A stretch of 64,000 nucleotides of DNA, taken from assembly GCF_002778325.1 (NCBI RefSeq), contig NZ_NESI01000001.1, forward strand, positions 186,001-250,000, given 5' to 3'. Position numbers and translations under genes: made by a program. Of this stretch, positions 41,061 to 44,035 are shown piece by piece. Position 1 is the first letter of the stretch. Every line of letters begins with the position of its first letter. The stretch is from Limnohabitans sp. B9-3. GTDB lineage: Bacteria; Pseudomonadota; Gammaproteobacteria; Burkholderiales; Burkholderiaceae_C. The notes beneath the pieces were generated by a model that saw only the letters and a list, made by a program, of their open reading frames with translations, searched no databases and was not told the origin of the DNA.

Positions 41061-41145
41061 GCCCGGGTGGTGAAATTGGTAGACGCAGGGGACTCAAAAT
41101 CCCCCGCCGCAAGGCGTGCCGGTTCGATTCCGGCCCCGGGCACCA
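41061..41145 (+). tRNA. tRNA-Leu (anticodon CAA)
   Basis: 85 nt including an encoded CCA. The acceptor stem GCCCGGG/CCCGGGC closes with discriminator A. The anticodon loop CTCAAAA gives CAA (UUG codon). The long variable arm typical of leucine tRNAs lies between the TCCCC anticodon stem and the T-arm (GGTTCGATTCC). It is a single gene, 40 bp before the Asn-x-Gln repeat protein. Confidence 0.97.
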
Positions 41146-41184
41146 CTGGTTAATAACTTCATCTGACAACTTGACTTCGAATTT

Positions 41185-42807
41185 ATGCAAGACGAAGAGT
41201 ACGCCAACATTGTCAGAAGCGGTGCAAGGCATTCCGTTCAAGTCTCTGAACGCACAGGCAACGCAAAAACCCCAAAAAATATTGTCAATTCATTGGCTGA
41301 TGTCGATTCAGCAAGGAAAAAAGCTGAGCTTGAAGCTCAGGCCTCAGCGCTTAAGACAGCCAAATTAGCTGAAGAAGAAGTACCACTCAGCAAGTTTGAG
41401 CTCGCACTCCAAGAAGCTTTGTCTGCCAAAGAGACGATCGTCACGCTCAAGAATGACGCAGAGGTTGAGCCCAACGTTCAACTCGTGACAGAGAACGATG
41501 CCGCATCGCCCAATGTGCAAAACGTTCCTATCGACAAGCTGCCAGCCAACATTCAATCGGTCACCAATGGCAACGCGGTGGCGTCCAACGTGCAACAAGT
41601 GTCTGTCGATCAGATGGTCGACAACGTTCAACACGTCGAGACATCCACCGACACAGAAAATCGTCAAACGCTGACCGTCGATGGCGCATCCTCCGCCAAT
41701 GTTCAAAACATCGCGGTTGACAAAACGCAAGACAACCATCAGACCCTAGAAACGTCGACCACATCAGAGAATCGACAGGGCATTGCCACCGAGCAAGCCG
41801 CAGCGCCGAACGTACAAAGCATTCCTGTCGACAAAATTGCAGACAACGTGCAAACGCTCGACAAAGAAAGCGTCATCGACAACCGCCAAGGCATCGCCAC
41901 AGAGCAGGCTGCAGCGCCCAATGTGCAAAGCATTCCGGTCGATCACATCGATGACAACACGCAAGCTATTGAAGTGTCGGCCAGCACTGAAAATAAAGTG
42001 GTGGTTGCCGAAGACTCTGCGACTTCACCCAATGTGCAAAACATAGCGGTTGACCAAGTCGCGAACAACGTTCAGCAAATCGACGTTGATGCCGCTGTTG
42101 ACAACCGTCAAAGCATTCCCAAAGACGAGGTGTCTGAGAATGTGCAAGTCATTTCCAATGACAACGCGACGGACAATCGCCAAGCCTTAGACCCAACACC
42201 CAGCACGCCAGTCAACCACATCGCCATCGACACGGCCGTTGAGTCAGACAACCGCCAAGCTTTGGCAACCGTCCATGAGACAGACAACGTCCAAGCACTG
42301 GGCAATGCGGCCATCGTGGACAACGTGCAAGCGCTCGACAAAGAAGGCGTCATCGACAACCGCCAAGCCGCGCCAGAAAACCCGCTGCCCGGGTTGAACC
42401 AACAAGAGGTGCCGATCGATCGCGTCGAAGACCATCTTGAAGTGTTGCCATCGACCGCGGTTGAACGGGCCACCGTCTCGTTTCCAACCAGCGACAGCGC
42501 GCCAGCCACTGACACCCCACGAGAGGCTCCCGCAGCGCCATCCCCTGAAACTCAAGCAGCTGTGCCCACTGCGCCTGTGATTGCGCAAGCCGTGCCATCA
42601 GCGGCCGAACTCAAAAAGATCCAGCAAGAAGAAGCACGCGCCGTATTTCGCAGCCGTTTAGCGGGTATCAAAAACACGGTGAATAACCTGAATTCACGGC
42701 TGACCGACATTGAAGTGGATGCAAAGACCTCAAAAAGCACGAAGGTCGAGAATGCCATCAGTCTGGAGGATCTGGAAGCCGACGAGGACGACGAGGGTTT
42801 CCTCTGA
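41185..42807 (+). CDS. large Asn-x-Gln repeat protein, unknown function
   Basis: 540 residues, no family recognised. Residues 1-95 are charged and helical (SARKKAELEAQASALKTAKLAEEE). Residues about 96-430 hold roughly 27 copies of a 12- or 13-residue unit N-[V/R]-Q-x-[I/L]-x-x-D/E-x4-D, such as NVQSIPVDKIAD and NRQGIATEQAAAP. Some units group as 13+12+12 (37-residue) super-repeats. A Pro/Ala-rich spacer (430-470), a helical stretch EEARAVFRSRLAGIKNTVNN and a very acidic tail (DLEADEDDEGFL) follow. No signal peptide, Cys or membrane segment is seen, so it is probably cytoplasmic. The ribosome-binding site is weak; a terminator at 42872 ends it. Confidence 0.75.
   Translation: MQDEEYANIVRSGARHSVQVSERTGNAKTPKNIVNSLADVDSARKKAELEAQASALKTAKLAEEEVPLSKFELALQEALSAKETIVTLKNDAEVEPNVQLVTENDAASPNVQNVPIDKLPANIQSVTNGNAVASNVQQVSVDQMVDNVQHVETSTDTENRQTLTVDGASSANVQNIAVDKTQDNHQTLETSTTSENRQGIATEQAAAPNVQSIPVDKIADNVQTLDKESVIDNRQGIATEQAAAPNVQSIPVDHIDDNTQAIEVSASTENKVVVAEDSATSPNVQNIAVDQVANNVQQIDVDAAVDNRQSIPKDEVSENVQVISNDNATDNRQALDPTPSTPVNHIAIDTAVESDNRQALATVHETDNVQALGNAAIVDNVQALDKEGVIDNRQAAPENPLPGLNQQEVPIDRVEDHLEVLPSTAVERATVSFPTSDSAPATDTPREAPAAPSPETQAAVPTAPVIAQAVPSAAELKKIQQEEARAVFRSRLAGIKNTVNNLNSRLTDIEVDAKTSKSTKVENAISLEDLEADEDDEGFL
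41776..41997 (+). repeat. 111-bp tandem unit inside the Asn-x-Gln gene
   Basis: Two adjacent 37-codon units begin with codons for NRQGIATEQAAAP. Their first two-thirds encode almost identical protein, but the DNA differs at many third positions (gccaccgagcaagcc versus gccacagagcaggct). The duplication is therefore old or maintained by selection on protein. Confidence 0.65.
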
Positions 42808-42871: not shown

Positions 42872-42905
42872 ATGCCTGCCTCATCCGCAGGCATTTTTGT
42901 TTTTG
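42872..42905 (+). terminator. intrinsic terminator of the Asn-x-Gln gene
   Basis: ATGCCTGC-CTCATCC-GCAGGCAT followed by TTTTGTTTTT, 64 bp after the stop. It isolates the repeat gene from the oxidoreductase that starts at 42914. Confidence 0.88.
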
Positions 42906-42913
42906 GAGTTCTC

Positions 42914-44035
42914 TTGAGCCACCTCTTTTCTGAATTCACCCTCACCTCACCGCGCGGCCCTTTGACCTTGGCCAACCGCGGCGTCGTGGCCCCCATGTGC
43001 CAATACTCGGCCGACAACGGTCAAGCCACCGACTGGCACCTGATGCATTGGGGCAACCTGCTCAACAGCGGCGCAGCCCTGTTCATCATCGAAGCCACCG
43101 CTGTCACCGCACGCGGCCGCATCACGCCCTATTGCCTTGGCTTGTGGGACGATGCCACAGCCGCTGCACTGAACGACACCCTGCAACGCGCACGCAAACT
43201 CGCGCCGCAAGTCCCCGTGTGCATCCAGCTCGCACACGCAGGTCGCAAAGCCTCCAGCGCCGCCCCTTGGCAAGGGGGTCAATTGGTCGACGATGCGAAC
43301 GGCGGCTGGCACCCCGAAGCGCCTTCCGCGTTGCCGCATTTGGCGCAAGAAACACCGCCTGAAGCCATCGACGCCCAAGGTTTGGAAGACATCAAACAGG
43401 CCTTCGTCAAAGCCGCCGAACGCGCCGACGCCATGGGCATTGAAGCCATTGAGTTGCACGGCGCTCATGGCTATTTGTTGCACCAGTTTTTGTCCCCCCT
43501 GTCCAACGTGCGCACCGACGGCTACGGCGGCAACTTTGACGGCCGCACGCGATTTCCCATGGAAGTTTTTGAAGCCGTGCGCGCGGTTTACAAAGGCGCT
43601 TTGGGCATGCGTTTGTCCGCGACCGATTGGGTCGAAGGCGGTTGGACACCCGAAGAAACCGCCGACTTCTCGTTGCGCTTGAAACTCGCCGGCGCAGACT
43701 TCGTGCACATTTCCTCAGGCGGCGTGTCGTCGCAGCAAAAGATCGCGATTGGCCCCGAGTACCAAGTGCCTTTCGCCAAGTTGGTGAAACAAAAAGCCCA
43801 ACTGCCCACCATCGCTGTGGGCTTGATCACTGAACCCCAACAGGCCGAAGACATCTTGGCACGCGGTGACGCTGATCTGGTCGCTTTGGCCCGCAGCTTT
43901 TTGTATAAACCCCGCTGGATGTGGGAAGCCGCAGCGGCGCTTCAAGGCACCGTGCAAGCTAGCCCACAATATTGGCGCAGCATGCCGCGCGAAGCGCAAA
44001 CCATTTTTGGTACCGTGCGTATTGGCCAACGCTAA
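42914..44035 (+). CDS. NADH:flavin oxidoreductase, old yellow enzyme family
   Basis: 373-residue FMN-dependent ene-reductase. QLAHAGRKAS, the ELHGAHGYLLHQFLSP active-site His region and NVRTDGYGG are class markers, closest to the YqjM-like thermophilic-type branch. The start is probably TTG 42914 with GGAG 5 bp upstream, because upstream codons of the same frame lie in the terminator stem. It may form a unit with the following receptor gene (28-bp gap). Confidence 0.9.
   Translation: MSHLFSEFTLTSPRGPLTLANRGVVAPMCQYSADNGQATDWHLMHWGNLLNSGAALFIIEATAVTARGRITPYCLGLWDDATAAALNDTLQRARKLAPQVPVCIQLAHAGRKASSAAPWQGGQLVDDANGGWHPEAPSALPHLAQETPPEAIDAQGLEDIKQAFVKAAERADAMGIEAIELHGAHGYLLHQFLSPLSNVRTDGYGGNFDGRTRFPMEVFEAVRAVYKGALGMRLSATDWVEGGWTPEETADFSLRLKLAGADFVHISSGGVSSQQKIAIGPEYQVPFAKLVKQKAQLPTIAVGLITEPQQAEDILARGDADLVALARSFLYKPRWMWEAAAALQGTVQASPQYWRSMPREAQTIFGTVRIGQR

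Follow-up and report, generated by a model that had tools for sequence, protein, structure and literature searches.

The window, a stretch of 64,000 nucleotides from Limnohabitans sp. B9-3, carries behind a tRNA-Leu gene an open reading frame for a protein of 540 residues, a large part of which consists of a short repeat. The question raised by this locus is what kind of protein this is, and what an array of such units may be used for. An initial annotation, made from the sequence, had described about 27 Asn-x-Gln units at a spacing of 12 or 13 residues, and this description holds. The protein contains 24 strict N-x-Q motifs, and 21 of the 23 gaps between them measure 12 or 13 residues; the other two measure 25 and span one degenerate unit each. 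None of 10,000 shuffles of the whole protein produced more than 12 motifs or more than 2 gaps of 12 or 13, and the same maxima were obtained in 10,000 shuffles of residues 95-410 alone. In register, 27 units fit residues 97-429, a total that takes in the degenerate units starting at 270 (NKV), 344 (NHI) and 417 (HLE). As judged by eye, 26 of the 27 units have I, V or L two positions after the Gln (+4), where the annotation had noted a hydrophobic residue, and the protein fits the view that it has no signal or membrane segment. Sequence counts confirmed the absence of Cys and revealed no Trp either, and the predicted acidic tail is borne out by the last residues, EADEDDEGFL. The majority of the units can be regarded as old, the between-unit nucleotide identity over the first 36 nt being 47% on average (best pair 94%). 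Some, by contrast, can be taken as recent duplicates: a 37-residue block of 12- and 13-residue units that begins at residue 196 recurs, with few changes, at residue 233.

Features of the repeat-protein locus, with positions in the window
Feature	Position	Strand	Basis
tRNA-Leu (caa), probable first part of the repeat-gene transcript	41061..41145	+	ARAGORN
39-nt spacer	41146..41184	+	no terminator-, promoter- or Shine-Dalgarno-like sequence seen
Gene for the 540-aa 12/13-residue-repeat protein (family A, subfamily A1)	41185..42807	+	ORF, ATG start
Conserved N-terminal motif, residues 9-34, IVRSGARHSVQVSERTGNAKTPKNIV	41209..41286	+	alignments; hhalign between subfamilies
Predicted N-terminal helix, residues 37-88	41293..41448	+	AlphaFold2, blocks 41-80 at pLDDT 65-80, ends 57-58
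27 units of 12 or 13 residues, N-x-Q-x-[IVL] core (residues 97-429)	41473..42471	+	sequence
Predicted C-terminal helix, residues 473-528, with family coil FxxRLxxIKxxVxxLNxRLxxxE	42601..42768	+	AlphaFold2 pLDDT 82-94, residues 471-520; hhalign
C-terminal tail, residues 513-540, acidic at its end	42721..42804	+	sequence
Terminator-like hairpin with T run after the gene	42872..42894	+	terminator scan
Downstream neighbour, oxidoreductase (presumably Old-Yellow-Enzyme-like), synteny marker	42914..44035	+	ORF, neighbour search

Searches for a known family were judged by the curated cut-off of each collection, or by E 0.01 where none exists (Pfam, NCBIfam, PHROGs, PADLOC). The best Pfam match of the window protein was XhlA (E 0.028, 15 bits against a cut-off of 34.7) and its best NCBIfam match scored 15.1 bits against a cut-off of 140; PHROGs and PADLOC gave nothing at E 0.01. 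Over 21 members, the best match was COG4_C (E 0.0035, in two members). These hits, together with MgtE_N, SRP19 and eL24, were rejected because they lay below the cut-offs or had E-values near 1. No credible sequence match was found in the PDB. A known repeat family or structure recognisable by sequence in Pfam, NCBIfam, PHROGs or the PDB was therefore dismissed, as was a defence protein of the PADLOC set, and the claim of the annotation that known repeat classes do not fit agrees with the absence of a curated-family match. Likewise, we rejected phage or plasmid cargo and a viral origin, since tblastn against 50,697 phage records and 72,556 plasmid records gave no match and, on viral contigs, 27 stretches fitted a pattern and none was a relative. 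A literature search returned nothing about a 12-residue repeat of this kind.

Comparison with relatives indicates that the length of the unit is held far more tightly than its sequence. In 19 proteins of the window protein's subfamily A1 (a filter left out six further A1-type proteins), the spacing is 12 or 13 for 324 of 357 N-x-Q gaps and 11 or 14 for only 3. In subfamily A2 (15 proteins, 147 gaps), 68 gaps measure 12 residues and 11 measure 13; in family B (13 proteins, 119 gaps), 69 measure 12 and a gap of 13 does not occur. The remaining gaps in both groups are mostly longer. A lag analysis that does not depend on N-x-Q (22 A1, 15 A2 and 13 B proteins) gave mean self-identities at lag 12 of 0.24 for A1, 0.22 for A2 and 0.18 for B, against about 0.05-0.08 at most other lags. 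The peak at lag 12 in family B is thus like that of A1, which in addition has a peak of 0.12 at lag 13 and further ones at lags 25 and 37, the latter two because a 13-residue unit often succeeds units of 12. In the proteins of loci L091-L096, D-H-x-V-G largely replaces N-x-Q and the 12-residue period stays (by eye). Similarly, L152 and L153 carry E-N-R-x-x-L-P words at steps of 12, with a single step of 14 or 13 (by a pattern chosen by eye), and have identities of 0.21 and 0.27 at lag 12 and of 0.16 and 0.19 at lag 13. Since the period persists where N-x-Q has mostly gone, Asn and Gln are not essential to the repeat. Residue frequencies per unit further show G, P or A at +5 and D at +7. The relatives are about 20-38% identical to the window protein and have kept the unit length, the +4 hydrophobic residue and the N- and C-terminal motifs; the ends are common to them, and the number and wording of the repeats vary.

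Homology of these ends was assessed with hhalign, using separately built profiles of A1 (22 sequences), A2 (15), A3 (4), A4 (3) and two groups named midN (2) and midS (10). The C-terminal coil related all 15 pairs of the six groups (E 1.5e-6 to 5e-16), A1 matching the five other groups with E 6e-8 to 3e-14, against 0.004 to 0.46 in five controls with reversed A1. The N-terminal motif related all ten pairs among A1-A4 and midN (E 1.4e-3 to 3.8e-9; five reversed controls, E 0.27 to 0.3). It should be noted that three of these pairs had probabilities below 50% (A1-A4 17%, A1-A2 30%, A2-A4 48%), A1-A2 reaching 67% with 60 residues. The window protein contains the family A motif [IV]IRS...HxVxV..GSxNAK as IVRSGARHSVQVSERTGNAK, and hhalign finds in it the family A coil FxxRLxxIKxxVxxLNxRL. 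No match to the N-terminal motif was obtained for midS in five comparisons (E 0.2 to 0.77), so that midS would be a member by its coil only, and convergence, which the reversed controls do not fully exclude, can produce such matches between coils of about 30 residues. The coil of family B showed no profile relation to that of the window family (E 0.21). On these grounds, we regard the N-terminal motif and the C-terminal coil as the marks of one family, with five or more versions distributed over four kinds of genomic place, and repeat, motif and coil together as an undescribed protein family.

The relatives appear confined to one genus as far as these searches reach, and the named loci identify it as Limnohabitans. 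Matches were found in 39 of 61 same-genus genomes, and in 22 of the 26 of good quality; in some of the 39 the match lies in a TerB protein and involves nothing but the repeat. When 398 genomes of the bacterial family were searched with a profile built from A1 and A2, which could miss remoter relatives such as midN, six matched; all six belong to the window's genus, one among the 133 genera covered. Twenty-three loci came from named records. Four of them bear the name Limnohabitans, two being from Limnohabitans sp. Jir61 and two from MAGs, and the others come from MAGs assigned to Comamonadaceae, Burkholderiales or Betaproteobacteria. An identical neighbour protein is encoded at locus L042 of Jir61 and at locus L065 of the same-genus genome G032, which connects the name Limnohabitans with the window.

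The four kinds of place are behind tRNA-Leu, behind an AerR-like B12-binding gene, beside a kup-like gene, and in a flagellar operon after flhB and a SPOR-like gene. The kup-like gene adjoins three of the four A3 loci (L136, L138, L139 and L140; by eye). A4 proteins are 733-769 residues long in genomes G011, G018 and G050, with a partial one in G026; their flagellar location refers to G018 and G050, the flagellar genes of G011 and G026 not having been read. The order in G018 is fliI, fliJ, a methyltransferase-like gene on the other strand, fliO, fliP, fliQ, fliR, flhB, a gene for a 728-residue SPOR-like protein, A4, and a gene for a 434-residue membrane coiled-coil protein (FliI, FliP and FlhB by Pfam, remaining names by eye), and the stretch covered in G050 agrees with it from fliO on. 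The membrane coiled-coil neighbour was matched in 57 of the 61 genomes and in 25 of the 26 good ones. In G022 and G051, whose flagellar genes were not read, the same gene is preceded by midN, with 209-210 residues comprising the N-terminal motif, 12-residue units and the coil. In ten other loci it is preceded by midS, which is coil only as far as read; four of these ten were read for their flagellar genes (G000, which is the window's genome, G006, G032 and G057), and in all four the coil-only gene occupies the middle slot in the flagellar operon, identified in G000 by FliI and FlhB with Pfam. The SPOR domain passes the Pfam cut-off in two of the four proteins scanned (E 4e-6 in G057 and 5e-6 in G006; 0.001, just under, in G000; 0.0078 in G018). 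By their position behind flhB and the SPOR-like gene, the A4 members thus resemble accessory genes of flagellar operons, from which they differ, together with midN and midS, in matching no Pfam family.

The flagellar operon is apparently the home site of the family. The window gene itself lies outside it, behind tRNA-Leu, and the window genome's own flagellar middle gene has neither the N-terminal motif nor the repeats; a flagellar role may therefore have been left behind. Of 16 genomes tested for flagellin domains, 15 have them, among them the window's own, and G016 has none. Some flagellin-domain open frames are very long, up to 1793 residues (G029); the export operon of the window's genome is at L160 (G000:C17). 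Four Limnohabitans strains compared in the emended genus description are all non-motile, according to the part available to us (PMC3031073), which speaks against a flagellar role, and flagella went without mention in the accessible part of a Limnohabitans phage paper (PMC12195039). Near the flagellar trio, a ParA/MinD-like ATPase (PF01656, 2.7e-13) with a small neighbouring gene was seen at L161:10831-11784, and another such ATPase with a small neighbour at L163:4278-5252 (by eye).

At the site of the window, ARAGORN identified the adjoining tRNA as tRNA-Leu (caa), as annotated. The A1 loci scanned at this site (the contig-end pieces L013 and L017 were not among them) have a tRNA-Leu ahead of the gene on the same strand, at a distance of 39-68 nt in 23 of 25 loci and of 216 nt in L002 and L050, and no terminator-like hairpin was seen in the 39-68 nt spacers. 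A promoter scan detected nothing in the 39-nt spacer and nothing ahead of the tRNA either, and the silence of the spacer therefore says little. Counting both strands, the terminator scan reported seven terminator-like sites over 2.1 kb, where shuffled sequence gave 3.3 +/- 1.8. In five of seven other A1 loci, too, the stop codon is followed by a hairpin with a T run (by eye; not in L048 and L011). The tRNA-Leu and the repeat gene thus look like one transcription unit, into which the window copy appears to have been captured, and with this arrangement the repeat-bearing copy would probably be made by read-through from the tRNA promoter. Further A1 copies are found elsewhere, namely an extra copy in Jir61 (L005, L046) and a copy in G040 (L006, L041; in L041 about 4 kb from the tRNA).

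The downstream oxidoreductase was sought in 22 genomes, chosen mostly for having no A1, and 19 loci were obtained. One (G010) has an A1 piece, seven have an adjoining tRNA-Leu and no A1, and 11 have a flank without tRNA. At such empty sites, a hairpin with a T run lies no more than about 45 nt after the tRNA in five of six (absent in L105; by eye). On a tree of the neighbour protein, the A1 label needs three changes with labels as first seen. The A1 rows fall within one 23-row branch (support 98/94), made up of 21 A1 rows, L063, which these labels count as lacking A1 because its contig ends but which carries the A1 C-terminus, and L041, where the A1 copy lies elsewhere. This tree fits a single capture of A1 at the tRNA-Leu site. 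With both occupied and empty versions of the site present in a single genus, the apparent capture of a protein gene by a tRNA transcription unit can be studied here by comparison.

What, then, may the protein do? Most probably it acts as a multivalent scaffold and not as an enzyme, in agreement with the initial annotation, for which a scaffold was a conjecture. More specifically, we tentatively favour, at somewhat below even probability, a cytoplasmic, oligomeric scaffold with many binding sites, relocated from the flagellar operon and tied to the flagellar or polar membrane apparatus. We infer this from the home operon, in which a SPOR-like gene and a membrane-protein gene adjoin, and from the coil together with the multivalent array. 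The window gene would be a relocated copy of a gene whose home order is flhB, SPOR-like membrane protein, this gene, membrane coiled-coil protein. Its N-terminal motif of about 25 residues, with the following helix, may dock on a partner, and the C-terminal coil, as sequence and model suggest, may oligomerise the chain. The 27 units of fixed length would then form a periodic acidic array, unfolded as a monomer, with one short binding site per unit; alternatively, the array might become ordered only when chains are brought together or bound along a partner. As the number of units varies between species, partly by tandem duplication, the length of such an array would be tunable.

The structural evidence comes from an AlphaFold2 monomer model of the window protein, built on a shallow alignment of 21 sequences (mean pLDDT 47, pTM 0.20). 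The helical N-terminus and coil-like C-terminal part proposed in the annotation are present as helices 37-88 and 473-528, besides a small hairpin (16-19/33-36). Residues 97-429 show no strand and are coil apart from short helices at 116-122 and 414-417, with pLDDT 29-49 by blocks of ten over residues 91-430; FoldIndex of the repeats is borderline at -0.04. With a 21-sequence alignment, low pLDDT is a weak sign of disorder. The annotation had named uniform disorder together with no conservation of the repeat as the finding that would speak against it: the disorder is predicted, and the repeat is kept among the relatives. Linkers that are simply disordered do not usually keep a fixed unit length, and we therefore favour an array in which every unit makes one contact, or else an array that becomes ordered when it assembles or binds. 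What fixes the repeat length, in an array that is unfolded alone in the model and has near-perfect unit length, is a testable question.

The solenoid with stacked Asn and Gln that the annotation had also considered would be a monomeric beta-solenoid with 12 residues per turn. Its strict unit length, the possibility that N0, Q2 and the +4 hydrophobic residue share one strand face, and the turn-like look of +5 and +7 speak for it. However, the modelled repeats contain no strand, their pLDDT is low, and N and Q are replaced in several subfamilies in which the period stays. A monomeric solenoid is therefore not supported, and we consider it unlikely. Insect antifreeze beta-helices (Tenebrio, Dendroides) are secreted, Cys-rich proteins of 12/13-residue repeats. 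The window protein shares their unit length and differs in its lack of Cys, of a matching PDB sequence and of strand in the modelled repeats. The amyloid units of curli and HET-s measure about 21-22 residues. Functional amyloids of this type resemble the window protein in having Asn and Gln at fixed repeat places and are unlike it in that it has 12-residue units, no secretion signal seen by eye and no curlin match, the curlin repeat profile being absent from Pfam scans up to E 10 for the window protein and up to 0.1 for the 21 members. Asn and Gln ladders are a topic of the HET-s papers in the parts at hand.

No better placed than the monomeric solenoid is a trimeric or otherwise intertwined fibre in which the coil sets the register and the repeats fold only as a bundle, as in the fibre shafts of viruses and phages. 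It would account for short exact repeats that adjoin a coil and for the failure of a monomer model, but the protein is acidic and no secretion signal was seen by eye, and we rate such a fibre as improbable.

A different setting is indicated by the A2 copies, known by the word SVEIPEG, which lie about 12-72 nt behind an AerR-like B12-binding gene on the same strand (L056, L057, L059, L083 and L086-L096). The AerR-like neighbour P0002 has a PF02310 B12-binding domain (2.8e-18), and its best PDB match is AerR (7te2, 1e-9). AerR is a B12 photoreceptor of purple bacteria with the motif ExHxxG, according to the accessible part of PMC6199135; the H and G of this motif are retained in the neighbour as S-M-H-I-L-G (by eye). 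The A2 genomes G006 and G014 have photosynthesis-type genes with another AerR-like open frame (named by eye). These copies point to light or B12 signalling instead, and the protein could serve as a scaffold of such a route rather than of the flagellum. Still, P0002 had no match at E 1e-10 in six genomes that keep A1 (G032, G040, G047, G049, G052 and G057), and A4 lies in a flagellar operon, so that we hold this for quite unlikely in the case of the window protein. A literature search that combined Limnohabitans, cobalamin and the photosynthesis gene cluster returned nothing. A second pointer to B12 comes from Jir61, whose extra A1 copy is located some 1 kb behind a probable cobalamin adenosyltransferase gene (L046:4465-5028; by eye). 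An AerR-like match with one reported in-frame stop is present in the window's genome (G000:C20:121948-122754), and the nearest relatives in L097-L100 adjoin other genes, some of photosynthesis type (by eye).

Family B (L018, L026-L036 and L076-L079) combines TerB stretches, 12-residue repeats and a coil, in several cases with a membrane segment and a C-terminal domain (by eye), and its neighbours are TsaD-like, HrcA-like or sensor-kinase-like genes (by eye). The four proteins scanned (L018, L026, L036 and L076) have two TerB stretches each. TerB-domain proteins (PF05099) are thus linked to the window protein through a family of the same genus with the same kind of repeat, and are unlike it in that the window protein has no TerB domain in the Pfam scan and a coil unrelated to that of family B by profile. 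TerB domains are also found in other genera, and the three loci read there (L122, L123 and L125) lack the repeat. The 12-residue module is hence used in at least two architectures that have no other common part.

Nebulin and tau are arrays of strict spacing that bind along a polymer. The window protein resembles them in a chain not folded alone, a near-constant unit length and a variable unit number, and differs in having no sequence relation to them in the Pfam and PDB searches. The family might be a new bacterial class of rulers that bind a filament or lattice. Each 12-residue unit of the unfolded chain (about 4 nm extended) would contact one subunit of a regular polymer or of a ring, located at the cell pole or at the base of the flagellum, both ends being anchored and the length being tuned by the number of units, and the module would be combined with several sensors (TerB domains, B12-binding neighbour). 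We regard this as a speculative proposal with a small chance of being right.

Flagellar axial proteins and rulers have a helix, a long unstructured part and a second helix. This layout, the position of A4 two genes behind flhB and the variation of unit number between species would suit a protein that the flagellar type III apparatus exports, either as a substrate or as a length ruler, but no flagellin, hook or FliK domain was found in Pfam scans of the window protein and the 21 members and most copies seen lie outside the operon, making export very unlikely. Least probable is a low-complexity expansion of little function, for which the varying unit number, the recent duplicates and the restriction to one genus could be cited, but which is at odds with the conservation of unit length, +4 hydrophobic residue and end motifs at the low identities given above.

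Limnohabitans is prominent in freshwater plankton, as stated in the available part of PMC3591437. An apparent flagellar home of the family in a genus with non-motile strains offers a concrete handle on the role of this operon there. The A1 N-terminus is present in 16 of the 61 genomes, with contig-end A1 pieces in G010 and G027 in addition; by direct reading, the A2 N-terminus was seen in 16, A3 in four, A4 in four (one partial) and midN in two. No genome was seen in two classes, the classes having been searched in differing ways and 17 of the 61 genomes being without a class. G032 has two A1 genes and the short P0004, a protein of 187 residues that is full length only in this genome and looks like a short divergent member. 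In the A1 copy of one MAG (L051:5570-6664), the frame departs from the family sequence before the C-terminal coil, which would reflect either a sequencing error or a broken gene.
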